From positions 1-64,000 of the IMG/VR virus record IMGVR_UViG_3300050821_004383: a stretch of DNA of 64,000 bases; one strand, written 5' to 3'. This document shows positions 24,610 through 59,053 of the stretch, one piece after another (the first letter of the stretch is position 1; the number at the start of each line of letters is the position of its first letter). The stretch comes from a virus. A program made the position numbers and the translations under genes. The notes under the pieces were generated by a model. The model was not told the DNA's origin. It ran no database searches and worked only from the letters and a program-made list of their open reading frames with translations.

Positions 24610-24684
24610 TGGTTCCGGCGTGTGGATTCGAACCACAATTAGCGGATTCAGAGTCCGCAGTCCTGCCAGTTAAACGACATCGGA
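24610..24684 (-). tRNA. tRNA-Gln (CTG)
   Basis: Anticodon arm GCGGA-CTCTGAA-TCCGC; TTCGAAT T-loop; encoded CCA; one acceptor mismatch. Confidence 0.85.
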
Positions 24685-24692
24685 ACAGAAAT

Positions 24693-24790
24693 TGGAGCGG
24701 TGTCCTCGTACTCACTAGAGCGATGGGGTCCTTCTCACCTAGGCACTCACCGCCGAGTGTACTCCCAGATTACCAGACCTACGATTACGA
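24693..24790 (-). other. Stem-closed tRNA-like spacer without canonical T-loop
   Basis: About 100 nt between two tRNAs, bounded by the same CCAATTT-type junctions. GCGGTG...CACCGC-T-CCA could form an acceptor-like end around 24695-24755, and CACTC...GAGTG gives another hairpin. No standard anticodon or T arm fits. A degenerate tRNA or a different small RNA. Confidence 0.3.
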
Positions 24791-24793
24791 AAT

Positions 24794-24869
24794 TGGTTGG
24801 ATGCGAAGGATTCGGACCTTCATCTGACTGATTCAAAGTCAGCCGTGTTGCCAGTTACACCAGCGTCCA
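24794..24869 (-). tRNA. tRNA-Gln (TTG)
   Basis: Anticodon loop CTTTGAA; T arm GAAGG-TCCGAAT-CCTTC; CCA encoded. Confidence 0.85.
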
Positions 24870-24878
24870 ACAGAAAAT

Positions 24879-24953
24879 TGGTCCTACACCGTGGAATCGA
24901 ACCACGTACGCCCGCCGTTTCAAGACGGCGCTCTACCAATGAGCTAGCGTAGG
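24879..24953 (-). tRNA. tRNA-Phe (GAA)
   Basis: Standard numbering with a 5-nt variable loop gives loop TTGAAAC, anticodon GAA; the anticodon stem has one G-T pair. T arm CGTGG-TTCGATT-CCACG; CCA encoded. Confidence 0.75.
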
Positions 24954-24954
24954 A

Positions 24955-25041
24955 TGGAGGAAGAAGATGAAATCGAATCATCAACCCGCTAGAGTTGGCC
25001 TAGTGTTCGAAACTAGTTGAGCGCCTTGCTCACCATCTTCC
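24955..25041 (-). tRNA. tRNA-Ser (CGA)
   Basis: Class II tRNA; anticodon arm CTAGT-TTCGAAC-ACTAG, long variable arm, T arm GATGA-TTCGATT-TCATC, CCA encoded. Its 5' 61 nt are also the 3' end of the HNH gene at 24981-25511. Confidence 0.85.
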
Positions 25042-25511
25042 AAAACTTTTCTACGAATACGGTCTTTGTAATTCTTCTCACACTCGATGCAATCACGACG
25101 AAGACCGTTCCAATTAGTTCTATTCTTTGCAAATCTATCAACAGAGAAGAACTGTTTATGTGTTCGACACCAAGCCTTGCCTTCTGGTGGTGTTATACGA
25201 TTACAACTGGGTTTTCCCAGTGAACCTTGAATGTGGGGTGTATTACAACGCGTGTGAGAAAATGTCACATTATCTAAATCCCAAAACAACTCAGGAGAGC
25301 GATTCTCCCAAGGACGAATGTGCTCAATACTCAAATCATCAACAGACTCAATCATCTTACCACACTTCACACAAACACTGTCACCGTATTTTTGTAATTG
25401 ACGAAACAAAATCATCTTACGAAGACGATTTGCCGCTGCTCCGTGGGACATACCAAGTTGTTCTGCAATTCTAGCACTGCGTGCTGCATGTGATGCGTGT
25501 GAGTTACCCAT
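24981..25511 (-). CDS. HNH endonuclease embedded in tRNA array (copy 1)
   Basis: This encodes 176 residues. ATG at 25511 (MGNSHASHAARS) is chosen for its AAAGGAG site; the longer frame runs through tRNA-Ser(TGA). The N-terminus has SHGAAANRLRK (basic, HTH-like). Then come CVKCGK, LSIEHIRPWENRSPELFWDLDN and SHTRCNTPH, the HNH/zinc core, and a second Cys cluster (WCRTHKQFF...CIECEK). Paralogues lie at 30072 and 33193. The last 20 codons lie inside tRNA-Ser(CGA). Homing or nicking of DNA is the family activity. Confidence 0.82.
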   Translation of the reverse strand: MGNSHASHAARSARIAEQLGMSHGAAANRLRKMILFRQLQKYGDSVCVKCGKMIESVDDLSIEHIRPWENRSPELFWDLDNVTFSHTRCNTPHIQGSLGKPSCNRITPPEGKAWCRTHKQFFSVDRFAKNRTNWNGLRRDCIECEKNYKDRIRRKVLEDGEQGAQLVSNTRPTLAG

Positions 25512-25551
25512 CGTCGTTGGCTCCTTTAAGCACTTGACTGATGTTTTCAAA

Positions 25552-25638
25552 TGGCGGATGATGAAGGAATCGAACCCTCTCGACCTTTCAGTCGGGACAG
25601 TTTTCAAGACTGCTGCTCCCCATGAAGCCCAATCATCC
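25552..25638 (-). tRNA. tRNA-Ser (TGA)
   Basis: Class II; anticodon arm CAGT-CTTGAAA-ACTG, variable arm CGACT...GGTCG, discriminator G, CCA encoded. Confidence 0.88.
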
Positions 25639-25646
25639 GTAAAAAT

Positions 25647-26003
25647 TTAGGCTACTTTCTTCGCCTTGCGAATCTTCAAATAGTTTCTCACAGGAAACGT
25701 CATCGTGCCCGCTGCGCATGCAAACGGAAGCCATGAGTGTGCCGCGTCAACCACGCCCGCGTATCCGGATGCTGCTAGAAACGCTAGCACGATTGCCGGA
25801 CGAAGGACCCCGGCGTCCAAAAACGTACGGAACGGGTGAGCCTTCTCGGTGAACCACTTCATCAATTTGTTGCCTTCGGTCTGGCCGTAGTACCAGATGC
25901 CCCAGCGGGTCACAAACACATCTGTCAACATCGCCACGTACCAAAGAACGGCAGCGAAGTTGTAAGTAAAGTCTCCGTTCGGAAGCGTGCGGGGGTCGAA
26001 CAT
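25647..26003 (-). CDS. Membrane protein, 118 aa
   Basis: ATG at 26003 has TTAGGAG 8 nt upstream; upstream in-frame codons are shadow. Three hydrophobic segments (about residues 17-38, 68-88, 92-110) and a basic C-terminus (RNYLKIRKAKKVA). Adjacent to and similar in design to the next membrane gene; possibly a paired membrane complex. No family recognised. Confidence 0.65.
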   Translation of the reverse strand: MFDPRTLPNGDFTYNFAAVLWYVAMLTDVFVTRWGIWYYGQTEGNKLMKWFTEKAHPFRTFLDAGVLRPAIVLAFLAASGYAGVVDAAHSWLPFACAAGTMTFPVRNYLKIRKAKKVA

Positions 26004-26011
26004 TCGGTCTC

Positions 26012-26323
26012 CTAAACTGGTATCTTCAAATTTCTGATAGCTTCTCTGATGTGCGCGTACCCGGCTTGAAATGCAAAGCCTGCTGCCATCACGTAGCCCG
26101 CGTAAACCGAGAAACGATTCGCTAACAACCCAACCGCAACCTCGCCCGCGATAACAAGAGTGCCCAAGCCATAAACCTTCAATGTGCTGGGTCTGGGTCC
26201 GAACAGCCACGCTGTGTCGGCTTCGTAGTAGTCCGGATTCTTCAAGAACCGAACTGTTGTCCATCCATCGAATAATGCCGCGCCGGATAAAACCACCGAC
26301 GCCACTACTAGTGGTATGTTCAT
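26012..26323 (-). CDS. Membrane protein, 103 aa, starting directly after a tRNA
   Basis: The ATG is 5 nt downstream of the CCA end of tRNA-Ser(GCT) (CCA-ATTTT-ATG) with no ribosome site, so the mRNA would be leaderless after tRNA processing. Three or four hydrophobic segments (MNIPLVVASVVLSGAALF; LGTLVIAGEVAVGLLA; GYVMAAGFAFQAGY). Function unknown. Its stop overlaps the ribosome site of the following membrane gene. Confidence 0.6.
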   Translation of the reverse strand: MNIPLVVASVVLSGAALFDGWTTVRFLKNPDYYEADTAWLFGPRPSTLKVYGLGTLVIAGEVAVGLLANRFSVYAGYVMAAGFAFQAGYAHIREAIRNLKIPV

Positions 26324-26328
26324 AAAAT

Positions 26329-26414
26329 TGGCGGAACGAGGAGGAGTCGAACCTCCACGTGCTTTCACACGCTGGTTTAGCAAACCAGTCCGGCTACCGT
26401 TTCGGCACCGTTCC
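26329..26414 (-). tRNA. tRNA-Ser (GCT)
   Basis: Class II; anticodon arm CTGGT-TTGCTAA-ACCAG, T arm GGAGG-TTCGACT-CCTCC, discriminator G, CCA encoded. Confidence 0.9.
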
Positions 26415-26457
26415 AGAAAATGTGGGGCGACCGGAGCCGCCCCGATTTTGTCTCAGA

Positions 26458-28140
26458 TTAAACCTCTACCGTAATACGAGGATTCGTCGGTGCGGCTGGT
26501 GGTGCTGGCGGCACGTTCGGTCCTGATGGCGGTAGCGATATCTGTACGCTTACCTCTGGCGGGTCTAGTGAAACCCACGTCACTGTGTTGTCCTGTGTGA
26601 TGGTATTCAACACTGGAGAGAACACTGGACGATGGGCTGCGTCACTGCTGATACCCGGAACAGAGACTTGCTGAAACGATTGGCTAACGCAATCGAATAC
26701 GATGTCCCCAACGTTGAACTGCTTGTTAGGAGCATAAACCGATAGCGTTGCGGATAAGAACATGACAACTGAATCAGTGTCCAGTGTCACTGCGCCTACG
26801 CGAGCCAGCAATCTGCCGTTGACTCTTACGCCCGTGTTAACGGTGATAGACGCTTGAGCCATGATTGTCCCGGAGAAGTTCGTTCCAACTCCGAGTGTTG
26901 CAGAACTGCCGACTTGCCAGAAAATGTTCGCCGCTTGTGCGCCGCCTAGCAATACGATGTTGCTGTTGCTAGCAGCGGTTGTAAGCGTTGAACCAATTTG
27001 AAAAATGAAAACCGCGTTCGGGTCTCCTAGTCCATCGAGAACCAGGGTCCCGGTGATGCCTACCGAACTTGCGTTCTTATAAACACCCGGTGTGAGAGTC
27101 AACCCGCCTAAATCACCCGGGAGAGCCGTGAACGGACTGCCGCTGGATGTGAGTCCAGAAGCCGATGCCGTTGCTGTCTCCGCCGTTGCTGCTGGGTTCG
27201 TCAACGTGATTGCTGTAATCGTCTGGGCTATGCAAACGAACGTTCCGTTGTTGGAAGCGTTAGTAAAGCCTGTGACCGTGAATCTTTGTCCAACTAGAGC
27301 GTTTCCTGCTGGGAAGGTTCCCACGTATGATGTATTTCCGAATGCGTCTGGTGCAGCAACGGAAGTTACAGGATACGGGCCTGTTGCAGAAAAACCGCCT
27401 ATGCCCGAAGGATTAACAGCGGATGCGGCTGCATTGTAAGCCGTTGTTAGTGCGGCCTGCGCTGCTGCTGCAACGAAGTCCCCGGCGTGAAACACGCCCG
27501 AGATTGCTGCTGGTGCTCCGAAACCAGTGATTGAAGTTCCCGGCCAAACTCCCACGTCACCCGCGACGGTTGTTGCGCCCGTGTTGGTGACAGTAGAACC
27601 TGCCAAGATTTCAAAACTGTTTGCCACTCCCACGTTTGGTGGGGTTGGGCTGGGACCGAACGGAACAGCGACGGAAAGAACGCCGACCGAGTTAGCACTT
27701 GAAATGCCGCCTGCGACCGATTCAATCTCGTAGCTGTAAACGTGGCCCGGGACAACTCCGAAATCCTCAAAGAACGGATTCGGTGTAGCAAGCGCCGAGT
27801 GTACCTCTGCGGTTGCGAACGAACTATTTAGTGTCAACGTTGTCGCAGAAGACGCGACGCATTGAAACTGCCCGTTGTTCGCGGAGTTACCGAAACCTGT
27901 AACGCGGAACACCAATCCTACGAAGGCGTTTGCTGCGCCACCGCTGATAACTCCAGTGTAAACGGCTTGACCGTTAGCGGACTGGGATACCGAGGATAAG
28001 ACGAGCGCTGGTCCTTGCTCAATCAGGCCAACGTTGTACGGAACTAAACTCTCATTTCCGGGTGCTGTACCACGGAAAATGTTGTAGCCATCGACCAGGG
28101 ACGGACTTGGGTCCCATGAGATGGTAATAGAATGTGTCAT
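26458..28140 (-). CDS. Fibre/adhesin with ice-binding-like (DUF3494) domain
   Basis: This encodes 560 residues from ATG 28140 with AAGGAG upstream. Residues 1-40 resemble a fibronectin III strand pair (ITISWDPSPSLVDGYNIFRG). One beta-module copy spans about 55-115. From about 175 the DUF3494 ice-binding-like pattern starts (FEILAGSTVTNTGATTVAGDVGV). It is interrupted by a second beta-module (about 265-330) and resumes with GGLTLTPGVY, DPNAVFIFQIGS, NIFWQVGSSATLG and VNGRLLARVGAVTLD. The C-terminus is Pro-rich. The family includes ice-binding and surface-adhesion proteins; here it probably decorates the virion. Confidence 0.75.
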   Translation of the reverse strand: MTHSITISWDPSPSLVDGYNIFRGTAPGNESLVPYNVGLIEQGPALVLSSVSQSANGQAVYTGVISGGAANAFVGLVFRVTGFGNSANNGQFQCVASSATTLTLNSSFATAEVHSALATPNPFFEDFGVVPGHVYSYEIESVAGGISSANSVGVLSVAVPFGPSPTPPNVGVANSFEILAGSTVTNTGATTVAGDVGVWPGTSITGFGAPAAISGVFHAGDFVAAAAQAALTTAYNAAASAVNPSGIGGFSATGPYPVTSVAAPDAFGNTSYVGTFPAGNALVGQRFTVTGFTNASNNGTFVCIAQTITAITLTNPAATAETATASASGLTSSGSPFTALPGDLGGLTLTPGVYKNASSVGITGTLVLDGLGDPNAVFIFQIGSTLTTAASNSNIVLLGGAQAANIFWQVGSSATLGVGTNFSGTIMAQASITVNTGVRVNGRLLARVGAVTLDTDSVVMFLSATLSVYAPNKQFNVGDIVFDCVSQSFQQVSVPGISSDAAHRPVFSPVLNTITQDNTVTWVSLDPPEVSVQISLPPSGPNVPPAPPAAPTNPRITVEV

Positions 28141-28334
28141 GAACTGCTCCTTGCACGCAATAAACTACATGCGCGTTGGGAGCAACGTGATACCCAGCTA
28201 GCTGACGCAACCACAATCCTGATTGTCGCACTCTATGGCGAGAGCGCGAGGACCGGACACATTCATTTTCAGTCACTTCCAAAGAAGTGAACCAAAAGGG
28301 AAGGAGGCTTTAACTCCGACTGACTACCTGATGC

Positions 28335-28439
28335 TTACTTCTTTGGATTACTTACACAAAATTTGCAAACTGGTCTTCTGTGAGGATGGCTGTAAATTAG
28401 TTCCTCTGCCAGTTTCTTGCATACGGGGCACATCTTCAT
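28335..28439 (-). CDS. Small zinc-ribbon protein, 34 aa
   Basis: ATG at 28439 sits 8 nt after an excellent GGAGGTGA site. MKMCPVCKK...PVCKFC gives two CxxC knuckles, a minimal zinc ribbon. The longer frame reads through tRNA genes and is rejected. Its place in the tRNA array suggests nucleic-acid binding, but this is inference. Confidence 0.65.
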   Translation of the reverse strand: MKMCPVCKKLAEELIYSHPHRRPVCKFCVSNPKK

Positions 28440-28533
28440 GGCTGTCACCTCCAGCCATAATACTACCACACCCGTGGTACCGCGTCTGTTCAATATTGGA
28501 CAGTACTGTTAATACAAGACACTTATCTAAAAT

Positions 28534-28609
28534 TGGCAGGTCATGAGGGATTCGAACCCCCACCGCATCGTTTTGGAGACGAGCATGCAACCAGTAACAC
28601 TTATGGCCT
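28534..28609 (-). tRNA. tRNA-Trp (CCA)
   Basis: Anticodon loop CTCCAAA; T-loop TTCGAAT; discriminator G; CCA encoded; one acceptor mismatch. Confidence 0.85.
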
Positions 28610-28618
28610 GTTGAAAAT

Positions 28619-28706
28619 TGGTGGAAAGTCGAGGACTCGAACCTCGGAAGCCCACAAGGGGCATCTGGTTTACAGCCAGAAGCAATTGCCGCTATGCGAA
28701 CCTTCC
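28619..28706 (-). tRNA. tRNA-Tyr (GTA)
   Basis: Class II; anticodon arm TCTGG-CTGTAAA-CCAGA; long variable arm; T-loop TTCGAGT; CCA encoded. Confidence 0.9.
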
Positions 28707-28778
28707 ACAATGCTAGTTGCGCCTCGGTGGCTCTATGGACTGCTCTCACCGATATGTTTAATGTCACAGCGCAAAACT
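28707..28778 (-). other. Stem-closed spacer RNA candidate
   Basis: TTGCGCT/GGCGCAA forms a 7-bp acceptor-like stem enclosing two hairpins (GACAT..ATATC and CGGTG..CACCG). There is no T-loop, anticodon arm or CCA, so it is not a normal tRNA. Confidence 0.35.
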
Positions 28779-28852
28779 TGGAGCCTCGTCGAGGAATCGG
28801 ACCCCGGCGTTCGCTTTACGAAAGCGACGTACTGCCACTATACTAACAAGGC
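28779..28852 (-). tRNA. tRNA-Thr (CGT)
   Basis: Anticodon arm TCGCT-TTCGTAA-AGCGA; T arm with TCCGATT loop; CCA encoded. Confidence 0.88.
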
Positions 28853-28861
28853 TCGGAAAAT

Positions 28862-28935
28862 TGGAGCGAAATGCGGAAATCGAATCCGCGCCTGGACCTT
28901 GGCAAGGTCCCGTTCTGCCACTATACCAATCTCGC
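28862..28935 (-). tRNA. tRNA-Gly (GCC)
   Basis: Anticodon arm GGACC-TTGCCAA-GGTCC; CCA encoded; good acceptor pairing. Confidence 0.9.
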
Positions 28936-28985
28936 CCAGAAAATTTGCCGACCGTATTAGCCGTTATACGGACCCAGGTTGTTGA

Positions 28986-29080
28986 GACCCAGGAGAGGAT
29001 TCGAACCTCAAATCGTCGGACTTCTCGGACGCGTGGCTGGCCGTGTCACAGCCCTTTGGACTCGCGCTACCCGATTAGTA
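28986..29080 (-). pseudogene. Degenerate tRNA-like element
   Basis: A canonical T arm GAGG-TTCGAAT-CCTC is followed by no CCA, and no 7-nt anticodon loop with U33 can be built. Hairpins GGCTG..CAGCC and CGTC..GACG suggest a decayed class II tRNA. Acceptor pairing is poor. Confidence 0.35.
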
Positions 29081-29081
29081 T

Positions 29082-29157
29082 TGGAGCACAATCGTGGATT
29101 CGAACCACGGTGACCGAGGTACAAGCTCGGTATATTGGACCGCTATATGAATCGTGC
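29082..29157 (-). tRNA. tRNA-Thr (TGT)
   Basis: Anticodon arm CCGAG-CTTGTAC-CTCGG; CCA encoded. Confidence 0.9.
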
Positions 29158-29158
29158 T

Positions 29159-29232
29159 TGGAGCTTCGACGTGGAATTGAACCACGACTTGTTCCTTACC
29201 AAGGAACCGTTCTGCCGTTAGACTATCAAAGC
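29159..29232 (-). tRNA. tRNA-Thr (GGT)
   Basis: Anticodon arm GTTCC-TTGGTAA-GGAAC; CCA encoded; 1 nt from the next tRNA. Confidence 0.9.
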
Positions 29233-29243
29233 TCGGAAATTAT

Positions 29244-29702
29244 TTAGGCGTGGTCACCCTTGTCGCCCTTATCGCCTTTGTCACCCTTGTCGCCACGGTC
29301 GCCCTTGTCTCCTTTATCACCCTTGGAGCCTACTGCGCCGTCCTTGCCATCGACGCCTTTATCGCCTGCGTCGCCCTTATCACCTTTGTCGCCCGGGTCG
29401 CCCTTCAAACCGTGTACGCCGTTCTCGCCTGGGTCGCCCTTGTCGCCCTTCAAGCCATGCTCACCGTTGGTGCCAGCATCGCCTTTGTCGCCCTTCGGGC
29501 CGACTGGGCCGGGTACGCCTTGTGGTCCCACAGGGCCTTGGAGACCTTGTGCGCCGACCGGACCCGCGATACCGCGCGGACCTAGAGGGCCTGCTTGACC
29601 TGCCGGACCTGCTGGTCCGACGTGCTTCTTCAAACTCAAAATGAATGCAGCTACAGACACTGCGGCTGTAACAGCAGAAACCAATTCAGCGGGGGCAATC
29701 AT
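29244..29702 (-). CDS. Membrane-anchored collagen-like protein
   Basis: This encodes 152 residues. ATG at 29702 has AAGGAG at 6-nt spacing; the ATG two codons earlier abuts the site. Residues 2-25 are a hydrophobic anchor ([19 protein letters not shown]) followed by KK. Residues 28-152 are uninterrupted G-X-Y, becoming GDK-rich toward the end. It differs from the other collagen-like gene by having a signal anchor, so it may be displayed on the infected cell or attached to a membrane. Confidence 0.72.
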
Positions 29703-29734
29703 TGGCATCTCCTTATTTTTAACTTCTACAAAAT

Positions 29735-29810
29735 TGGAGCGGCGAACGGGATTCGAACCCGTACGTTCTGCTTGGAAGGCAGACATGCTAGCCGTTAACA
29801 TCACAGCCGC
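29735..29810 (-). tRNA. tRNA-Gly (TCC)
   Basis: Anticodon arm TCTGC-CTTCCAA-GCAGA; T-loop TTCGAAT; CCA encoded. Confidence 0.9.
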
Positions 29811-29818
29811 TTTGAAAT

Positions 29819-29897
29819 TGGTTGCGGAGGTGGGATTTGAACCCACGATAACAAGGTTATGAGTCTTGTGTTTTAGACCAGGCTAAACTACCCCGCT
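29819..29897 (-). tRNA. tRNA-Met (CAT), probably elongator
   Basis: Anticodon loop CTCATAA closed by an A-C mismatch; T arm GTGGG-TTCAAAT-CCCAC. The A1-A72 mismatch is noted, but the anticodon stem lacks the three GC pairs of initiators. tRNA-Ile2 (CAT) cannot be excluded. Confidence 0.75.
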
Positions 29898-29907
29898 ATA
29901 GAAAATT

Positions 29908-29983
29908 TGGTTCTGGTCGCTGGATTCGAACCAGCTACCTTCCGCTTATCGAGCGGACGCCCGTCCACATGTGCTCGACCAGA
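29908..29983 (-). tRNA. tRNA-Ile (GAT) with C33
   Basis: Perfect acceptor TCTGGTC/GACCAGA; anticodon arm TCCGC-TCGATAA-GCGGA places GAT at 34-36 with C instead of the near-universal U at 33. CCA encoded. Confidence 0.75.
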
Positions 29984-29991
29984 ACAGAAAT

Positions 29992-30067
29992 TGGTGGACC
30001 GTTCCGGCTCTGCCCCGGACGCCTCGGAGGTGCAAGCTCCGCGTTCTCCTGAATGAACTAACAGCCC
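29992..30067 (-). tRNA. tRNA-Ala (TGC) with non-canonical T-loop
   Basis: Acceptor GGGCTGT, D arm GTTC..GAAC and anticodon arm CGGAG-CTTGCAC-CTCCG are standard. The T arm is TCCGG-GGCAGAG-CCGGA instead of a TTCRANY loop. CCA encoded; total 76 nt. Confidence 0.7.
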
Positions 30068-30071
30068 AAAA

Positions 30072-30491
30072 TCATCGTCCACGTTTAGTATCGTGGCACT
30101 CTTTACAGTTTATTTGAAACCCACTCCAACGAGTTTCTTTCTTATAAAAGTTATCCACCGGAAGAAACTGCTGATGACCACCGCACCATGACGTGCCTTC
30201 TGGTCCAACAAACTTTCGTAAACTGCCTCCGTGATGCACATGGGGACGATTACATTGTAAATGCGAGAACGCTATATTATCCAAATCCCAAAAGAGTTCA
30301 GCAGAACGACCTTCCCATGGAAGCTTATGCTCTATGCTTAACTCTTCTACGACTAAAATCTCTTTGTTGCACTTGAAACAAATATTTTCTTTCAACTTTT
30401 TCAAAAGATGAAACAAAATATTCTTTCTTAATCTTCCATTGGCCGTGCCGTGAGGCATGCCTAGCGTTGCAGCTTTCTGCGTATTACTCAT
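30072..30491 (-). CDS. HNH endonuclease embedded in tRNA array (copy 2)
   Basis: This encodes 139 residues from ATG 30491 with AGAGGG upstream. It shares with copy 1 an HGTANGRLRKNILF start, CFKCNKE, LSIEHKLPWEGRSAELFWDLDN, SHLQCNRPH, and a second Cys cluster (WCGGHQQFL ... CKECH). The stop lies 4 nt before the 5' end of tRNA-Ala. A free-standing homing-type nuclease is the likely role. Confidence 0.82.
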   Translation of the reverse strand: MSNTQKAATLGMPHGTANGRLRKNILFHLLKKLKENICFKCNKEILVVEELSIEHKLPWEGRSAELFWDLDNIAFSHLQCNRPHVHHGGSLRKFVGPEGTSWCGGHQQFLPVDNFYKKETRWSGFQINCKECHDTKRGR

Positions 30492-30529
30492 AATCGTTAA
30501 CCCTCTTTGGGTTGTTGATTAAGTTAAAT

Positions 30530-30606
30530 TGGTACTCGCGGCGGGATTTGAACCCGCGTTCTTGGCTTGAAAGGCCAGCGTCCTGGGCCGACTAGACGAC
30601 ATGAGC
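30530..30606 (-). tRNA. tRNA-Glu (TTC)
   Basis: Anticodon loop CTTTCAA; T arm GCGGG-TTCAAAT-CCCGC; CCA encoded; one acceptor mismatch. Confidence 0.85.
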
Positions 30607-30611
30607 ACTAC

Positions 30612-30684
30612 ATGCGCCGATACAATTCGCTTTTTGGGGAAGTGGCTTTATGCATTTATAGCCAATCCGATAATTGTATCGTAC
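30612..30684 (-). other. Stem-closed structured spacer
   Basis: A 9-bp outer stem GATACAATT/AATTGTATC encloses an inner hairpin TGGCT..AGCCA. It lies between two tRNA-Glu genes. No tRNA arms. Candidate small RNA or processing element. Confidence 0.4.
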
Positions 30685-30689
30685 GAACT

Positions 30690-30765
30690 TGGTAGCGTCG
30701 GCGGGATTTGAACCCGCGTGACCAGATTGAGAATCTGGCATCCTAGACCACTAGATGACATCGCC
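30690..30765 (-). tRNA. tRNA-Glu (CTC)
   Basis: Anticodon arm CCAGA-TTCTCAA-TCTGG; T-loop TTCAAAT; CCA encoded. Confidence 0.88.
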
Positions 30766-30773
30766 ACAGAAAT

Positions 30774-30866
30774 TGGTTGTCAGCCTCGGTGCCGACCCGA
30801 GTCGTCGCGCTAATCAGGCGCTCTCCTCGACTTATAAGGTCGAGCCGCATGCCGATGCTGCCGACA
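30774..30866 (-). tRNA. Class II tRNA with TAT anticodon (tRNA-Ile?)
   Basis: 93 nt. Acceptor TGTCGGC/GCTGACA, small D arm GCAT..ATGC, anticodon arm CTCGAC-CTTATAA-GTCGAG. A class II variable arm has stem GCGC..GCGC, and the T arm CTCGG-GTCGGCA-CCGAG has an atypical loop. CCA encoded. A long variable arm is not expected for Ile, so its charging identity is uncertain. Confidence 0.6.
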
Positions 30867-30872
30867 AAAGGC

Positions 30873-30950
30873 TGGGCCGACGGGGAATCTAACCCACAAT
30901 GGGGCAGCCTCTGGCGTTCCTTCCAGCGCATCCCATCACTCGTCCCAGAG
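30873..30950 (-). pseudogene. Probable tRNA remnant
   Basis: GGGACGA/TCGGCCC pairs as an acceptor with one mismatch and a TTAGATT T-loop-like segment is present. The T stem is only 3 bp, there is no U33-type anticodon loop, and the end is GCC rather than CCA. Confidence 0.35.
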
Positions 30951-30954
30951 AAAT

Positions 30955-31030
30955 TGGTAGCTCGTAAGAGAATCGAACTCTTCCTATCCGGGTGTAGGCC
31001 GGATGCATACGACCAGTTTGCTAACAAGCT
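30955..31030 (-). tRNA. tRNA-Val (TAC) with C33
   Basis: Acceptor AGCTTGT/ACGAGCT; anticodon arm TCCGG-CCTACAC-CCGGA gives TAC with C at position 33. CCA encoded. Confidence 0.78.
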
Positions 31031-31037
31031 ACAGAAA

Positions 31038-31154
31038 TCAACGGTGGTAATAATGAATCCAGAGAACCAGGGCACTCGCGCTAATCACTACCCCCAGGAT
31101 GTTGCACACTGTCCGTATCAGTGCCATCCACTGGTCGAATGTTAGCCTTTTCAT
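31038..31154 (-). CDS. Small membrane peptide, 38 aa, overlapping the 86-aa gene
   Basis: ATG at 31154 with AAGGA close upstream. MKRLTFDQW then a hydrophobic segment (VCNILGVVISASALVLWIHYY). It overlaps the end of the 86-residue membrane gene in another frame. Nested small membrane genes occur in phage lysis cassettes, but no holin or spanin family was recognised. Confidence 0.5.
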   Translation of the reverse strand: MKRLTFDQWMALIRTVCNILGVVISASALVLWIHYYHR

Positions 31155-31341
31155 TGTCCTTCTTCTTTGTTCTGGTCTCGTACCACTTTCTTCTCAACCC
31201 CAAGTATTCGAGTTGAGCCTTCAAACTTTCTTCCGCTGCGTGGCGCATCGCGCGGTCATCGCGCCAAATGCCCACCAGGAAGTACAACGCGACTAAGTCA
31301 ACTACCAACGCCGCAACCGAAGCTACGTTCGCTATAGTCAT
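31081..31341 (-). CDS. Membrane protein, 86 aa
   Basis: A single N-terminal membrane segment (VASVAALVVDLVALYFLVGIW) followed by a charged, partly coiled-coil soluble tail. It resembles an inner-membrane spanin or holin accessory in outline only. The ribosome site is weak. Confidence 0.5.
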   Translation of the reverse strand: MTIANVASVAALVVDLVALYFLVGIWRDDRAMRHAAEESLKAQLEYLGLRRKWYETRTKKKDNEKANIRPVDGTDTDSVQHPGGSD

Positions 31342-31435
31342 ATTCGCTCACAAAGTTGTGCCCCAACTAGTAACTTCAACAGACCGTCAGGGTCTTGCCG
31401 CGCGTATCTGCTAGTTTACTCGGCGCGGAAAAATT

Positions 31436-31511
31436 TGGTCGAGCGCCAGAGACTCGAACTCTGACCCTACCCGTTAAAAGCGGGATATGCTGCCCCTAAC
31501 ACCTGCACTCG
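31436..31511 (-). tRNA. tRNA-Lys (TTT)
   Basis: Anticodon loop CTTTTAA; T arm CAGAG-TTCGAGT-CTCTG; CCA encoded. Its 5' 45 nt overlap the end of an HNH gene. Confidence 0.88.
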
Positions 31512-31796
31512 ACGGTATTTCTTTGTGAAACTGTGTCCAAGCGCCTTAGTCAACTCTTCGTGGCACTCTTGACATTGCAGTTCACATTTCAAAACTTCTT
31601 TCCAAAACTTTTCATCTGAATACGAAGAACCATCAGCGAGTGTGAACTCTTTTGTTTCCGGGTCCTTGTGATGAAACTGTAATTCTTCTTGCGACCCGCA
31701 AGTCTCGCACCGCGTTCCAAGAAACATGATTGCGCGAATGCGACGAAGTTGCCAGCGGCGCTTCATGTACTCATTCATGTATTCATTTGTACTCAT
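31467..31796 (-). CDS. Small HNH endonuclease in tRNA array (copy 3, different subtype)
   Basis: This encodes 109 residues. CETCGSQEELQFHHKDP, then CELQCQECHEEL, form a compact HNH motif with Cys ligands, unlike the other three array nucleases. The first ATG is 6 nt after the CCA of tRNA-Lys(CTT) with no ribosome site. The last 15 codons lie inside tRNA-Lys(TTT). Confidence 0.75.
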   Translation of the reverse strand: MSTNEYMNEYMKRRWQLRRIRAIMFLGTRCETCGSQEELQFHHKDPETKEFTLADGSSYSDEKFWKEVLKCELQCQECHEELTKALGHSFTKKYRRVQVLGAAYPAFNG

Positions 31797-31802
31797 AAAA
31801 AT

Positions 31803-31879
31803 TGGTGCGCCGCCTCAGACTTGAACTGAGACCAAGCCTCCTTAAGAGGGAGGTATTCTGCCGCTCGAAATCGCAGCGC
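31803..31879 (-). tRNA. tRNA-Lys (CTT)
   Basis: Anticodon arm CCTCC-CTCTTAA-GGAGG; T-loop TTCAAGT; CCA encoded. Confidence 0.9.
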
Positions 31880-31889
31880 ACTGAAAATT

Positions 31890-32191
31890 ATTTGGTTGCG
31901 CTATAGCCCGGTTTCTGTCGAGGACGAACATTCCTCTAAGCACGCTACCCGCTCGTCATCCTGCTCAATAAGCAGTCAGAGCCTATTTGCGCTTGCACCC
32001 GTGTGGAGTGCCTTCGCTCGAATGAGGGTTTCCAACATGTGAAGATGGATAACCCTACGAAGCCTTACCCGAATCCTTGCGGACCCCGCATCTTCCACGG
32101 CACGGTGTTGAGATGTGACCGGAACTTCCTCGCTGACGTTTAGCCACTATCCGGACTCATACGCCATCGCGTTCGTCTACGCTACCAAAAT
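31890..32191 (-). ncRNA. rnpB: RNase P RNA (phage-encoded, bacterial type)
   Basis: The minus-strand RNA contains the conserved RNase P core. GAGGAAGTTCCGGT near the 5' side pairs with ACCGGGCT near the 3' end, forming P4 with the diagnostic bulged U. The 3' terminus reads GACAGAAACCGGGCTATAG, matching the bacterial consensus. GGGTAGCGTGCTTAGAGGAATG and ACTCCACACGGGTGCAAG...AAATAGG match the catalytic and specificity-side conserved blocks. The P1 ends TTTGGT/ACCAAA pair. About 300 nt, shorter than the 377-nt E. coli RNA. It would process the surrounding tRNA precursors with a host or unseen phage protein subunit. Boundaries are approximate. Confidence 0.88.
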
Positions 32192-32300
32192 TAATCCGGG
32201 GGAGGTTTTCGTTACCCGTCCCGGCACCCAAACGATTCGACTAGTCTACTTCGAGTGTTGCCCACAAGGGGCACCCCCGCACGTGTAGGGCCGACAAACT
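32192..32300 (-). other. Structured spacer between tRNA-Cys and RNase P RNA
   Basis: GGGGGTG/CTCCCCC can close an acceptor-like stem, with TTG-TGGG-CAA and GGT..ACC hairpins inside. There is no T-loop consensus or CCA. It could be a decayed tRNA or a leader of the RNase P RNA. Confidence 0.3.
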
Positions 32301-32377
32301 TGGACTCCTCGGCTAGACTGTAACTAGCTAAGAGCGGGTTTGCAATCCGCCGTCTCGACATCTTCGACATCGAGGAG
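32301..32377 (-). tRNA. tRNA-Cys (GCA) with atypical loops
   Basis: Perfect acceptor CTCCTCG/CGAGGAG; anticodon loop TTGCAAA; T arm GCTAG-TTACAGT-CTAGC lacks C56. The D-loop lacks the GG pair. CCA encoded. Confidence 0.75.
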
Positions 32378-32382
32378 AAACT

Positions 32383-32468
32383 TGGTGCGCCGCACAGGAT
32401 TCGGACCTGTACGCCATTTCTGGCCGGGGGTTTTAAGTCCCCTACGTCTGCCGTTCCGCCAGCAGCGC
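32383..32468 (-). tRNA. tRNA-Leu (TAA)
   Basis: Class II; anticodon loop CTTAAAA, GGCC..GGC variable arm, T-loop TCCGAAT, CCA encoded. Confidence 0.88.
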
Positions 32469-32522
32469 AATATCTACCCGGCTTGCTGTATATCCTTCAA
32501 CAGTGTTCGCCACCGGGAATCT

Positions 32523-32611
32523 TGGTCGCCCGCCCCGGAGTCGAACCGGGACTCTACTTTATTCGAACCGCGTTTTGAGTGCGGCGCGTCTGCCAGTTCC
32601 GCCAGCAGGCG
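32523..32611 (-). tRNA. tRNA-Leu (CAA)
   Basis: Class II; anticodon loop CTCAAAA; T arm CCCGG-TTCGACT-CCGGG; CCA encoded. Confidence 0.88.
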
Positions 32612-32613
32612 AT

Positions 32614-32688
32614 TGGTAGCCCATGAAGGACTCGAACCTTCATCGCTTGATTCGTAGTCAAGCATCCTATCCATTGAACGAACAGGCC
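32614..32688 (-). tRNA. tRNA-Arg (ACG)
   Basis: Anticodon arm CTTGA-CTACGAA-TCAAG; T-loop TTCGAGT; CCA encoded. A34 would need host TadA editing to inosine for wobble reading. Confidence 0.9.
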
Positions 32689-32698
32689 ACTGTAAAAT

Positions 32699-32776
32699 TG
32701 GAGGCCCCGGTCGGATTCGAACCGACTTTTGTACGGGTTAGAACGCCGTTGAGATATCCATTTTCTCGACGGAGCC
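32699..32776 (-). tRNA. tRNA-Arg (TCT)
   Basis: Anticodon loop GTTCTAA; T arm GTCGG-TTCGAAT-CCGAC; CCA encoded. Confidence 0.87.
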
Positions 32777-32785
32777 TCTGAAACT

Positions 32786-32872
32786 TGGTGGGCCGCGAGG
32801 GATTCGAACCCCCACGCTTTTCACGGCACTGGTTTCTAAGACCAGCATGTCTGCCAATTCCATCAGCAGCCC
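32786..32872 (-). tRNA. tRNA-Leu (TAG)
   Basis: Class II; anticodon arm CTGGT-CTTAGAA-ACCAG; CCA encoded. Confidence 0.9.
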
Positions 32873-33024
32873 ACAGAAATCCTGGCGGTATTTGTCATCG
32901 CGCCCCGCCGGAAGCGCATCGGATGATGTTTAGTCACCGAGAGTTTTGCCCCTTACCAGTGCACGAGGCCACGCACCCAGTAGCTAGCTGGGGATGTTTA
33001 ACTCTCTGTTGCAACGTCGTACAA
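32873..33024 (-). other. Structured non-coding spacer
   Basis: A 7-bp outer stem GAGAGTT/AACTCTC encloses CCCAG-CTAGCTA-CTGGG and a TGC..GCA hairpin. A CCCC/GGGG pair could form a pseudoknot. A second hairpin CATC..GATG lies 3' of it. No ORF or tRNA arms. Possible small regulatory RNA. Confidence 0.4.
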
Positions 33025-33027
33025 AAT

Positions 33028-33101
33028 TGGTCAGGAATCGTGGAATCGAACCACGGCCTCATGCTTCCGACGCACGTAGACTACCACTATCAGAATACCT
33101 G
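33028..33101 (-). tRNA. tRNA-Pro (CGG)
   Basis: Anticodon arm CGTGC-GTCGGAA-GCATG; T-loop TTCGATT; CCA encoded. Confidence 0.87.
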
Positions 33102-33110
33102 ACGTAAAAT

Positions 33111-33185
33111 TGGCTCCATCCCTAGGATTCGAACCTAGACCTGTTCGGTTAACAGCCGAGCGTCCTACCGTTGGACCAGAATGGA
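33111..33185 (-). tRNA. tRNA-Asn (GTT)
   Basis: Anticodon arm CTCGG-CTGTTAA-CCGAA; discriminator G; CCA encoded. Confidence 0.88.
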
Positions 33186-33192
33186 ACTGAAC

Positions 33193-33573
33193 TCAATGCC
33201 CGGTAGTTTGATATTTTATTCGACGACGTTCTGTTGTGTACACTTTTCTCATGTACCCAGCAACTTGTCCTCTTCGAACTCGTATCGCTTCTTCGGGCGA
33301 ATACTTTCTTCTAATTCGACGGGCATCTGTGTTGCAGGCTCTGTGACTGAAAGCGATGTTCTCCAAAGAGAAGAACACGGTCCTCGGGTCACTGCTGTGC
33401 AACCACGGCTCTTTGTGGTCTATCGAGAGGTCTCGACTTTCCGCAATTTGCTTACCGCATCGAAAACAAAAATCTCTTTTCACTTCCTTCACTAACCCGA
33501 AAAGAATTTCTTTTCTAAGTTGGTGACAGGCTGTTCCAAACGGAACACCTAATTGCTGTTGTTTCTTATCCAT
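33193..33573 (-). CDS. HNH endonuclease embedded in tRNA array (copy 4)
   Basis: This encodes 126 residues. LGVPFGTACHQLRKEILFGLV, CFRCGKQ, LSIDHKEPWLHSSDPRTVFFSLENIAFSH and CNTDARR match copies 1 and 2; the C-terminal Cys cluster is replaced by a basic tail. The AAGGAT site before the ATG lies in a perfect hairpin AACCATC/GATGGTT, which may restrain translation. The stop is 7 nt before tRNA-Asn. Confidence 0.8.
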   Translation of the reverse strand: MDKKQQQLGVPFGTACHQLRKEILFGLVKEVKRDFCFRCGKQIAESRDLSIDHKEPWLHSSDPRTVFFSLENIAFSHRACNTDARRIRRKYSPEEAIRVRRGQVAGYMRKVYTTERRRIKYQTTGH

Positions 33574-33589
33574 TCAAACCATCCTTTAA

Positions 33590-33668
33590 GATGGTTCGAA
33601 TCCGATACTGTACCAGCCACTCGGTTTAAGTCCGAGAACTTTTACAACCCGGGCGTTACTCCGGTGAA
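33590..33668. pseudogene. Scrambled tRNA remnant
   Basis: A T-loop sequence GG-TTCGAAT-CC occurs on the plus strand, opposite to every other tRNA. Next to it is a perfect anticodon-like arm CTCGG..CCGAG on the minus strand whose 34-36 would be TTA. No acceptor stem closes these parts. Confidence 0.3.
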
Positions 33669-33670
33669 AT

Positions 33671-33748
33671 TGGCGGTCCATACGGGATTTGAACCCGTGG
33701 TCTTCTCCGTGACAGGGAGACGAGGACTCCTGACTCCTCCAACAGACC
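33671..33748 (-). tRNA. tRNA-Asp (GTC)
   Basis: Anticodon arm TCTCC-CTGTCAC-GGAGA; discriminator G; CCA encoded. Confidence 0.9.
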
Positions 33749-33757
33749 GCAGAAAAT

Positions 33758-33836
33758 TGGTCGAGGAACCTGGATTTGAACCAGGGGTCTCATGCTTCCA
33801 AAGCACGCGGGAACGGCCAGACTTCCCCATTCCTCG
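33758..33836 (-). tRNA. tRNA-Pro (TGG)
   Basis: Anticodon arm CGTGC-TTTGGAA-GCATG; perfect acceptor CGAGGAA/TTCCTCG; CCA encoded. Confidence 0.9.
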
Positions 33837-33924
33837 AAAAATTTCTCGCTTTCCTCAGCGTCGCCACTTAAGGCTAGGTGGACTATCTGCGAGATGCTGA
33901 CCCGTCACTGGGCCACTTGATTCT

Positions 33925-33990
33925 TTAGTTGACCGTGTAAATGCCGGGTCCCATCGGTGTTGCTCGTCCCAAACTCTCTGTGTCTTTCAT
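33925..33990 (-). CDS. Leaderless 21-aa peptide ORF
   Basis: ATG at 33990 lies only about 10 nt past the -10 box, so the transcript would begin at or just before the start codon. The peptide is MKDTESLGRATPMGPGIYTVN. It may be a translated leader for the tRNA operon. The following 80 nt contain nested pairings (GTCAGC/GCTGAG, CTCGC/GCGAG). Confidence 0.4.
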   Translation of the reverse strand: MKDTESLGRATPMGPGIYTVN

Positions 33991-33999
33991 CGTGAAACC

Positions 34000-34028
34000 A
34001 TCCTAGCACAGTTCTCGAACTTTGTCAA
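34000..34028 (-). promoter_or_regulatory. Consensus promoter for the tRNA array
   Basis: Minus strand TTGACA (34028-34023), 17-nt spacer, TAGGAT (34005-34000). The same box pair and spacing as the 8358-8386 promoter. It drives the block from tRNA-Pro(TGG) leftward. Confidence 0.82.
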
Positions 34029-34047
34029 GCACTATTTTCGAGAATCT

Positions 34048-34362
34048 TTACTTCTTCGAATAAGCGCGGCCTGGGTAGTTACGAGCGTATGCGTGAGCGT
34101 CGTCTCCCGGCTGCTCGGTCTGCTTGCCGATGTGCTCCATGCTGCACGGCAATCCCTTGTGGGAACCGTTGGCGCTTACGCCCATCGAGTTCGAACGTCC
34201 GGCCTTCAATGCGGCTGCATCGTGAGAAGTCTCGTGACGAACCTTCTCGGCCTTGGGTGTGCTACGGCCTGGATACTTGTGCGCGTGCGGCTGGTCGTGG
34301 GTCATCACTGTCTCGGGTGCGTGGGCCATGCCCGCCGCTGTCTTTTCGCTGTACTTCGCCAT
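34048..34362 (-). CDS. Hypothetical protein, 104 aa
   Basis: Soluble, His/Lys/Ala-rich, with two similar segments HKYPGRST and RNYPGRAYSKK at about 28 and 95. Probably disordered. It sits between the two tRNA promoters. No family recognised. Confidence 0.55.
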   Translation of the reverse strand: MAKYSEKTAAGMAHAPETVMTHDQPHAHKYPGRSTPKAEKVRHETSHDAAALKAGRSNSMGVSANGSHKGLPCSMEHIGKQTEQPGDDAHAYARNYPGRAYSKK

Positions 34363-34424
34363 TTTCTCATTCCTCGCGTTGCCTCACCTTTCGGTACGGG
34401 GCACGCTTCGTACTTCTAAATTTT

Positions 34425-34501
34425 TGGGGTGGGTGATGGGTCTCGAACCCACTCTGGCCCGATTCACAGTCGAGCGCGTCACCTGTTTCGCCTCACTCAC
34501 C
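34425..34501 (-). tRNA. tRNA-His (GTG)
   Basis: Anticodon arm CTCGA-CTGTGAA-TCGGG; has the His-specific G(-1):C73 pair; CCA encoded. First tRNA of the array in transcription order. Confidence 0.92.
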
Positions 34502-56732: not shown

Positions 56733-56948
56733 ATGACTGAGTTCTACTTTGAAACAAGCGAATCAGACGGCACTTGTCGAGTTAACTTAACTCCCGGCTC
56801 CTACCCGCCGAAATTGTGCGGGAGAGAAGCGTGCGCTAAGGCTGACTTTCAGATGTTAGAAAGCGACGAGCGCGTTCACATCCCTGTTTGCAGAGAGCAC
56901 GGGAAGAAGATTGCTGCATCAGGAACAACCGTGAGGTTTGAAGAGTGA
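56733..56948 (+). CDS. Small Cys/His protein, 71 aa
   Basis: GGAGGAG precedes the ATG. LCGREACAKA...PVCREHGKK could bind zinc. Sits between primase and polymerase. Confidence 0.5.
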   Translation: MTEFYFETSESDGTCRVNLTPGSYPPKLCGREACAKADFQMLESDERVHIPVCREHGKKIAASGTTVRFEE

Positions 56949-58165
56949 TTGAACTGCATTGCGACTTCGAATCACGCAGCCCGGTTTCTCCCGGGGACGT
57001 GGGATTGCATAACTACATCTTCCATCCGGAGACGGAGCCGCTATTCCTCTGGTACAAAATAGGTGACGCGGGCTACCAGTGTTGGAACATCTGGGAGAGG
57101 GCAGGCTTCGTAGAGCGCGACTGGGAGGGCATGAGCGTCCCCCAAGATTTGGACGAATCGTTGCATGACCCGGATGTGATGCTCGTTGCCTTCAACAGCG
57201 CTTTTGAGCGCTACATGTTCAAGAAGCTGGGATACGATATCCCGGCCAGTCGTTTCATAGACCCACAAGTCGGAGGGCGTTACCTCTCGCTCCCCGCCAG
57301 CCTTGACGTGCAGTGTCGCGTCATGGACCTACCTGCAAACCTCACCAAAGACGAACGCGGAGAAGAACTAATCAAGCTATTCTGCGAGAAAGTAATCGTT
57401 AAGAAGACTAAGAAAAATCCCGCCCGGGAGTATTACAACGATTGGACCACGCACCCTCGTGAGTGGCAGGAGTTTCTGAATTACGGCAGACAGGACGTTG
57501 TTGCGGAGGGAGAACTACTTCGCAGAATGCGAATCTTGCGTGCGCTCCCCCTCCCGGAGTTTGAACAGAAGTTGTGGCTGCTTGACCAGACGATAAACGA
57601 CCGAGGCATGCCTGTAGACCGCGTGTTCGTTGAGAAGATGTACCGACTGGCGGTACGCGCCAAGGAAGAAGCGAAGAAAAACTTCGAGAAGATGACAGGC
57701 GTTACAAACGCAAATTCGCCCGCTCAGATTAAGAAGTGGGCAAAGACACAAGGCTATCCGTACGGCACGTTGAAGAAGGACACCGTCACGTCCGTGCTCA
57801 AGGACCCGGATATCAAGTTGACCGACACGTGTCGTGCAGCATTAAAGATGCGTGCGGAAGCGGCCAGCACAAGTTATCAAAAGCTGGGGAAGATATTAGA
57901 GTGTGTCTCCCCAGACGGGAGGTTGCGCGGGCAATTTATTTTCTTGGGTAGTTCTCGCTGTGGGCGGTGGTCTGGTAACGCTGTACAACTTCATAATTTC
58001 CCGCGCCCTCTGGTTGTGGGAGGTTTTGACTTCGAAGACCAGAAGGTCGTGAGGGAAGCACGTGCGATGGTGTACGCGGAAGACTACGATGGCATCAAGG
58101 AAAAATACTTGAGTGTTCTTCTTGTTGTGAAAAGTCTGATTCGTACGGTGTTTGTCGCGCCATGA
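56945..58165 (+). CDS. Family A DNA polymerase, N-terminal part (split gene)
   Basis: This encodes 406 residues from a GTG in an overlap. LHCDFESRSPV (DxE), then FNSAFERY and the GRQDVVAEGELL segment form the 3'-5' exonuclease domain (1-200). Next come palm/thumb elements including GSSRCGRWSG and LHNFPRP. The frame ends at KSLIRTVFVAP, just before motif A, where an HNH cassette is inserted. The rest is at 59050-60160. Confidence 0.85.
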   Translation: MIELHCDFESRSPVSPGDVGLHNYIFHPETEPLFLWYKIGDAGYQCWNIWERAGFVERDWEGMSVPQDLDESLHDPDVMLVAFNSAFERYMFKKLGYDIPASRFIDPQVGGRYLSLPASLDVQCRVMDLPANLTKDERGEELIKLFCEKVIVKKTKKNPAREYYNDWTTHPREWQEFLNYGRQDVVAEGELLRRMRILRALPLPEFEQKLWLLDQTINDRGMPVDRVFVEKMYRLAVRAKEEAKKNFEKMTGVTNANSPAQIKKWAKTQGYPYGTLKKDTVTSVLKDPDIKLTDTCRAALKMRAEAASTSYQKLGKILECVSPDGRLRGQFIFLGSSRCGRWSGNAVQLHNFPRPLVVGGFDFEDQKVVREARAMVYAEDYDGIKEKYLSVLLVVKSLIRTVFVAP

Positions 58166-58374
58166 TTACTCTAATTAGAACTCCAAAATGTGACTACCCG
58201 TCGTGCTCGTGGCAAGGTCTCGTTAAAGATTTGCTGCGGTGGCTTGATGTTGGGGGACCATATCGTTTGTGCCCGGAGCACTATAAATTAAAGTATTTTC
58301 AACGTCAACAAGAACAGATGCAGGCTCAAAAGGATGAGTTTGACGCACTTGAAAAGGGAAAGTATGAGAAGTAA
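58162..58374 (+). CDS. Small Cys/His protein in the polymerase insertion, 70 aa
   Basis: ATG overlaps the stop of the polymerase N-part (ATGA), so it is translationally coupled. CDYPSCSW...LCPEHYKLKYF could bind zinc; the C-terminus is a Q/E helix. Part of the inserted cassette. Confidence 0.55.
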   Translation: MITLIRTPKCDYPSCSWQGLVKDLLRWLDVGGPYRLCPEHYKLKYFQRQQEQMQAQKDEFDALEKGKYEK

Positions 58375-59053
58375 ATACTACGTAGCTGGAACACATCATT
58401 CAACTGGCAGTTGTCTGTTGTTTTCCAAGGAAGAGGATAAAATTATCCGAGGAATGTATGAATCGAGTATACCAGTTCAAAACATTGCTCGAAAGTACGG
58501 AATTTGTTTGCCGACTGTTTATGCTTCTGTTCGTCGTGCGGGCGGTCGTGTTCGTAAGAAAGGAGAAAGCGATAAGCGAAAAAGACTAACCCTTGAGCGT
58601 GCAAAAGAACAAATACCTACAGCCTTAGCGGTGCGTCACGACAGCAAGCGCAGGCCGCAAGTGTTGGTAGCGTGCCCTCTTCAAACATCTCCCAGTTGTC
58701 AAGTACGAAAACCAAAGTGGCGCTACATAAACACGAAGATGCGTCAGACTACGGGGATTTGTCGAAGTTGCTCAGGTTTTCGCGGAGGACATGTTTCTAA
58801 CGGCTACAGACGTGTTTATATAAACGGAAAGTCTGTGGCGGAACACCGCACAGTTATGGAAAGGATGCTAGGTCGAAAACTTCGTTTTTATGAGACAGTG
58901 CATCACAAAAACGGAGACGGGTTAGATAATAGGCCACGTAATCTTGAATTGTTTACGAGTCGCCACACAAAAGGCGCGAGACCACGAGATTTGGTAAAAT
59001 ACTTGAAAACAATCCCAGTAAGTTTGGGAGGATTGAAGGAGAAGCAGCGATGA
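58364..59053 (+). CDS. HNH homing endonuclease inside the polymerase gene
   Basis: This encodes 229 residues; ATG at 58364 after AAGGGAA. Residues 20-55 hold an HTH (IPVQNIARKYGICLPTVYASVRRAGG). The C-terminal half has NGYRRVYINGKSVAEHRTVMERMLGRKL and VHHKNGDGLDNRPRNLELF, the HNH_3-type core. The stop overlaps the ATG of the polymerase C-part. Typical mobile element that splits phage polymerase genes. Confidence 0.87.
   Translation: MRSKYYVAGTHHSTGSCLLFSKEEDKIIRGMYESSIPVQNIARKYGICLPTVYASVRRAGGRVRKKGESDKRKRLTLERAKEQIPTALAVRHDSKRRPQVLVACPLQTSPSCQVRKPKWRYINTKMRQTTGICRSCSGFRGGHVSNGYRRVYINGKSVAEHRTVMERMLGRKLRFYETVHHKNGDGLDNRPRNLELFTSRHTKGARPRDLVKYLKTIPVSLGGLKEKQR

Follow-up and report, generated by a model that had tools for sequence, protein, structure and literature searches.

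We find that a phage encodes an RNase P RNA inside its own tRNA array. The DNA analyzed (the window) comprises the first 64,000 nucleotides of IMG/VR record IMGVR_UViG_3300050821_004383, which is 98,515 bases long, and the RNA lies on the minus strand, measuring 300 nt from P1 to P1 with its ends set by the paired P1. The identification is strongly supported by the covariance model (CM) score, the phage genes that surround the RNA, the recovery of eleven distinct covarying RNAs, and the synteny in related phages. RNase P RNA is regarded as a cellular function that only the host supplies.

The RNA matches the bacterial class A model RF00010 (RNaseP_bact_a) over the full model (positions 1 to 367) at window positions 31888 to 32188 on the minus strand. 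The score is 92.5 bits, with an E value of 8.6e-29 when 701 bases were scanned and of 1.2e-27 when 10 kb were. A reading made earlier from the letters alone (the sequence-only reading) had proposed a minus-strand RNase P RNA, and the significant, full-length match in this covariance search bears that out; the motifs that it cited, GAGGAAGTTCCGGT (32131 to 32118) and ACAGAAACCGGGCTATAG (31918 to 31901), lie where it placed them. A default Rfam scan of the whole window returned tRNAs only, without the RNase P RNA, because the score falls below the curated gathering score for RF00010, which is 100 bits. RNAs from related phages score 66 to 156 bits against the same model and exceed 100 bits in L111/L112, L031, and L242. 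The GAGGAA and ACAGAA blocks near P4 are kept in the phage RNAs, together with the AAAUAGG block. Single-sequence minimum free energy folds do not display the pseudoknotted core and were set aside. The features of the RNA and of the surrounding array are collected in Table 1.

Table 1. Positions in the window of the phage RNase P RNA, its structural elements, and the neighboring tRNA features
Feature	Position	Strand	Basis
Phage RNase P RNA, type-A-like catalytic domain and reduced specificity domain	31891..32190	-	RF00010; covariation with nine other phage RNAs
P1 5' strand UUGGU, pairs with ACCAA	32184..32188	-	97.5% of P1 cells paired
P1 3' strand ACCAA	31892..31896	-	Covariation alignment
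P4 5' strand AGUUCCGGU, one U bulged	32118..32126	-	Sequence; 8/8 pairs in all eleven phage RNAs
P4 3' strand ACCGGGCU, after ACAGAA	31905..31912	-	Pairing with 5' strand
P6 pseudoknot 5' strand CAACA	32106..32110	-	Pairs with L17
P6 pseudoknot 3' strand UAUUG in L17	31966..31970	-	Covariation alignment
Reduced specificity domain, one arm: P10 CUUCG/CGAAG and conserved AUUCRAG	32006..32068	-	Motif check; P10 covariation
P15 5' strand GCGC, immediately 5' of AAAUAGG	31989..31992	-	100% of P15 cells paired
P15 3' strand GCGU	31942..31945	-	Covariation alignment
L15 GGU motif, expected binding site for tRNA 3' CCA	31947..31949	-	GGU in 11/11 phage RNAs; role from PMC10731613
tRNA array, 30 ARAGORN tRNAs with interspersed HNH genes	24610..34500	-	ARAGORN and gene scan
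tRNA-Lys(CUU), 11 nt downstream of the RNase P RNA	31803..31879	-	ARAGORN
Aberrant tRNA-Cys-like sequence, anticodon GCA, 3' UCCA	~32297..32378	-	Read by eye

The window is phage DNA. The source record encodes a terminase, a portal, a head protein, and a DNA-transfer protein, and its terminase is closest, among isolates, to that of Tunturi_3, a phage of Tunturiibacter (Acidobacteriota), although the two are only 27% identical. Relatives of the DNA-transfer protein, grouped in one PHROG family, occur in more than a thousand phage records; the T5 A1 protein, which acts in early host takeover, is of the same kind. An HNH gene separates two pieces of DNA polymerase I (window 56945 to 60160, plus strand), suggesting an intron or an insertion. 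The source phage also encodes a tyrosine recombinase (PF00589, E 4.2e-08) at L345:15835-16734, corresponding to record positions 79835 to 80734, and integration or recombination by this phage is therefore possible.

Relatives were gathered by pattern scans of IMG/VR and by a terminase-based search, and whole records were then scanned with RF00010. With the window, eleven distinct phage RNase P RNAs were obtained. They were found in G008 (L009), G010 (L011), G042 (L038), G108, and G112; as identical RNAs shared by G011 and G015 (L012/L016), G094 and G095 (L111/L112), and G119 and G131; and in G020 (L031) and G102 (L242). Ten RNA-bearing records carry the terminase family of the window at 43 to 74% identity (G008, G010, G015, G042, G094, G095, G108, G112, G119, and G131; G011 stood outside the terminase comparison). 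The window terminase had no match in G020 or G102, of which the former encodes a phage-type DNA polymerase and the latter a phage terminase with an endolysin. All these RNAs sit in large tRNA arrays (43 calls in that of L242), and in the main clade the RNA mostly lies between tRNA-Cys or tRNA-Leu and tRNA-Lys, that of G108 being elsewhere in the array. ARAGORN "tmRNA" calls that overlap the RNA in L009, L012, and L016 look like artifacts. The RF00010 scan found no RNase P RNA in three terminase relatives that are poor in tRNAs, namely, G103 with 4 tRNAs in 75 kb, G123 with 3 in the 80 kb covered, and Tunturi_3, a complete genome, with 1 to 2. It is suggestive that absence of the RNA goes with few tRNAs, although G103 and G123 may be fragments. 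G122 likewise gave no match, but its contig begins at the array end and is hence uninformative. L242 falls among bacteria without support in an RNA tree that is weak; L242 and the RNAs of the main clade may have been captured from bacteria independently.

The fold of the phage RNA is under selection. Covariation was assessed in an alignment of ten phage RNAs (A3), from which L242 was left out and in which the type A core helices were counted. In this alignment, 552 of 575 base-pair cells are paired (96.0%), double-sided changes occur at 37 of 58 pairs, and 83 cells are changed on both sides. The covariation score was 0.500, compared with 0.181 in shuffles, and none of the 500 shuffles reached any of the measures. 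When the structure was slid by 1 to 3 columns, the paired cells dropped to 33 to 38%; the window sequence served as the template for the structure, a choice that somewhat favors the unslid version but has no bearing on the double-sided changes. Across the ten RNAs, every cell is paired in P2, P4, P8, P9, and P15, and the proportion is 97.5% in P1, 92.3% in P16, 88% in P17, and 86% in P6, where the window copy has one pair broken by a C-A mismatch. The 5' strand of P15 varies among GCGC, CUGC, CUUC, CAGC, GCCC, and GUCC, and its partner strand matches in every case. The class A architecture of P6 and P15-P16-P17 with the L15 GGU loop is thus present in the window RNA and in its phage relatives. 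Most of the phage RNAs have an ACCA(A) 3' end that is paired in P1 with UUGGU, as in the window RNA, and that resembles the CCA ends of the adjoining tRNAs; a 3' trimming route shared with the neighboring tRNAs is possible.

The active-site helix P4 is paired in 88 of 88 cells across the eleven phage RNAs even though four of its pairs change. Pairs 67, 68, 71, and 74 (Escherichia coli numbering) show 3, 3, 3, and 4 pair types, respectively: pair 67 is G-C, C-G, or A-U; pair 68 is U-G, U-A, or G-C; and pair 71 is C-G, A-U, or U-A. In a sample of 116 mostly proteobacterial RNAs, pair 68 is G-C in all 116 and pairs 67 and 74 are variable, pairs 70 to 73 being uninformative there because the search pattern fixed their 3' bases. 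Among 51 Acidobacteriota RNAs collected by CM search, pair 68 is G-C in 49 and pair 71 is C-G in 49, and the exceptions look like misregistered matches. Pairs 68 and 71 are thus near-invariant in the sampled bacteria, whereas in the phage RNAs they vary by compensation. L009 and L012 illustrate this on a small scale: their last 259 nt are identical save for 4 positions, which are one base of the P4 5' strand and the 3' base paired to it, the 3' base that pairs with another differing P4 base, and one position outside P4. Pair 68 is U-G or U-A in 10 of the 11 phage RNAs, in contrast to the G-C of nearly all bacterial samples, and this might lower activity. The sequence-only reading had described a P4 with the universally bulged U. 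All eight pairs and one bulged U are indeed present, but the position of the bulge differs in detail. In an ordinary P4, G68 pairs with C and there is only one U, whereas in the window two Us of the 5' strand face one extra G, so that either U68 pairs with G and U69 is bulged or the reverse; the same ambiguity between two Us exists in 10 of the 11 phage RNAs.

The canonical ACAGA, GUGAAA, and GGUAA motifs were looked for in the specificity arm of the window RNA and are absent, and this sets it apart, as a variant, from standard class A RNAs. ACAGA and GUGAAA are absent in 10 of the 11 phage RNAs; L242 alone has both, as does the Enterobacter RNA used for comparison. In what is left of the domain, five of five P10 pairs show double-sided changes (A3). 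The eleven RNAs are 259 to 329 nt long; computed arm lengths are heuristic and come out too long for L111, L255, and L263. The specificity domain of RNase P RNA contacts the T-loop of pre-tRNA, and an arm without the canonical motifs may differ in affinity or in choice of substrate. Outside this arm, P1 to P4 and P15 form, in agreement with the sequence-only reading, but P18, a helix of the type that it also expected, is missing in the window RNA. P18 is missing in 8 of the 11 phage RNAs, that of the window among them; G112, G119, and L242 have it. As G112 and G119 are relatives of the window phage, P18 was probably lost in the window branch.

The array around the RNA contains one further tRNA found by Rfam (29995 to 30067) in addition to those called by ARAGORN, and with the tRNA-Cys-like sequence the count is 31 to 32, where 33 had been claimed. 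A tRNA-Cys is called at the equivalent place in several relatives, and a tRNA-Lys lies downstream of the RNase P RNA in most. Many tRNAs of the array are set apart by short ATTTTCNGT-like spacers, and CCA is encoded in each of the 30 tRNAs that ARAGORN called in the window. The L15 GGU motif pairs with the tRNA 3' end (PMC10731613). The earlier suggestion that the RNA could favor the phage's own CCA-ended precursors is no more than consistent with this loop and with the encoded CCA, since host RNase P reads CCA too. A sigma-70 scan gave no promoter-like site directly upstream of the RNase P RNA. A leader motif, approximately CGTT-N-AACGAAA, lies at window positions 32200 to 32240 on the minus strand and also 5' of the RNA in L009, L011, L038, L231, and L287. 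Of seven main-clade phages compared, six have this motif despite divergent surrounding sequence, and it may act in processing or regulation. The array region also holds HNH endonuclease genes between tRNAs (30072 to 30491 and 33193 to 33573, minus strand) and, at 26458 to 28140 on the minus strand, a gene whose product has an ice-binding-like domain (PF11999, E 1.3e-58).

Blastn of the phage RNAs against INPHARED, a search that is blind to distant phage RNase P RNAs, returned no RNase P RNA and matched at flanking tRNA sequence only. Bacterial rnpB queries match a few phage-labeled records, with MT835553, which carries no annotation, among those examined. Microcystis phage MaAM05 (L233, MW495066.1) has an ordinary rnpB of 251.8 bits along with bacterial fliM, fabI, and glyS, and the record looks at least partly bacterial; bacterial genes also surround the rnpB match of Acinetobacter phage MD-2021a. 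Short P4 patterns matched mostly by chance, with RF00010 matches in only 5 of 66 and 5 of 20 records. The pattern used on the genome collection was too general, with bacterial rnpB controls among the matches listed, and the 105-bit match in G235, an Acidobacteriota genome, is an rnpB that contains masked Ns and has bacterial genes around it.

The best reading of the phage RNA is a role in the maturation of phage tRNA precursors. We consider it quite probable that it is a working RNase P ribozyme that is made within the tRNA array and matures the phage tRNAs with host RnpA. The RNA would be transcribed as part of the minus-strand array and would fold into a type-A-like catalytic domain (P1, P2, P4, P5, P6, P8, P9, P15, P16, and P17) with a cut-down specificity arm. 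It would then bind RnpA of the host, the simplest reading because no rnpA was found in the phage records: RnpA (PF00825) had no match at an E value of ≤1 in nine phage records, some of them incomplete, and 10 of 14 control genomes were positive. Array precursors with short spacers would need one RNase P cut per tRNA, and the ribozyme could cleave the 5' leaders of these closely packed, CCA-encoding tRNAs. The cut at the 5' end of the tRNA-Lys may also free the 3' side of the ribozyme itself. Processing of some 30 tRNAs could in this way be sustained once host rnpB is no longer transcribable, and early host takeover is the stage at which a phage-made supply of the RNA would help.

Other roles are conceivable. 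One that we regard as unlikely, though worth keeping in mind, is that the RNAs form a viral RNase P family that has diverged from host rnpB, with otherwise near-invariant P4 pairs varied by compensation and most of the specificity domain discarded, and that may act on phage pre-tRNAs largely protein-free. It is rather improbable that the RNA is an active RNase P of altered specificity directed mainly at non-tRNA targets, such as phage or host transcripts. The loss of the canonical specificity-domain motifs in most of the family and the changed P4 sequence would fit such targets, but the gene is always in a tRNA array, was not found in tRNA-poor relatives, and retains the CCA-reading loop. We likewise see little chance that the RNA is a decoy that, instead of cleaving, binds to RnpA of the host or to pre-tRNA and inhibits the host enzyme. 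Protein binding could outlast catalysis in an RNA with a reduced specificity arm from phages without a recognizable rnpA; however, strict compensatory selection falls on the catalytic P4, the GAGGAA, ACAGAA, AAAUAGG, and L15 GGU elements would be needless for a protein sponge, and inhibition of RNase P would hurt the phage's own 30 tRNAs. A captured host rnpB that is decaying without present function is very improbable: the score under the Rfam cutoff, the reduced arm, and the loss of P18 in the window branch are what a relic might show, but a relic would have lost its pairing, whereas 83 double-sided changes leave 96% of cells paired, and the RNA is kept among phages whose terminases are 43 to 74% identical, in a conserved position in most. 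Bacterial DNA misassembled or misbinned with phage, suggested by the many RNase P matches in virus collections that are bacterial rnpB (250 to 335 bits, some among bacterial genes), is scarcely credible here, as the RNA recurs within phage tRNA arrays on long same-terminase contigs from separate metagenome records and the main clade, at 66 to 102 bits, is unlike the bacterial rnpBs sampled.

Compared with bacterial type A RNase P RNA (RF00010), the phage RNAs have in common P1, P2, P4, P5, P8, P9, P15-P16-P17, and the P6 pseudoknot, as well as GAGGAA, ACAGAA, AAAUAGG, the L15 GGU, and the full-length CM match. They differ in a much shorter specificity arm without the canonical motifs (except L242) and in being phage encoded within tRNA arrays. 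Reduced RNase P RNAs that keep the catalytic core exist in mitochondria and in Pyrobaculum (type T). Plastid RNase P RNAs are also reduced and retain the universally conserved nucleotides (PMC4264200); going by their description, the phage RNAs stand apart in being virus encoded and in changing P4 bases yet keeping the pairing. Large phages carry translation genes and tmRNA, which are host-type machinery, and RNase P is unmentioned in the main text of the report (PMC7162821). In the open-access full-text literature, subscription journals being outside its scope, we found no account of an RNase P RNA that is encoded by a phage. The RNase P RNA itself is of a known kind; what is new is its viral location, the association with the tRNA array, the reduced specificity arm, and the covarying P4. 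A phage with its own tRNA-processing ribozyme would, if true, extend viral takeover of translation to RNA maturation. The natural P4 variants, at pairs near-invariant in the sampled bacteria, make models of metal binding and of the bulge testable on sequences vetted by selection, and a minimal specificity domain becomes testable with the phage RNAs. The multi-tRNA transcripts of T4 also need RNase P, which is supplied by the host, and CCA is not encoded in the T4 Pro-Ser precursor (PMC11143913); the window phage, which shares with T4 a multi-tRNA array, differs in encoding CCA and in bringing its own ribozyme RNA.
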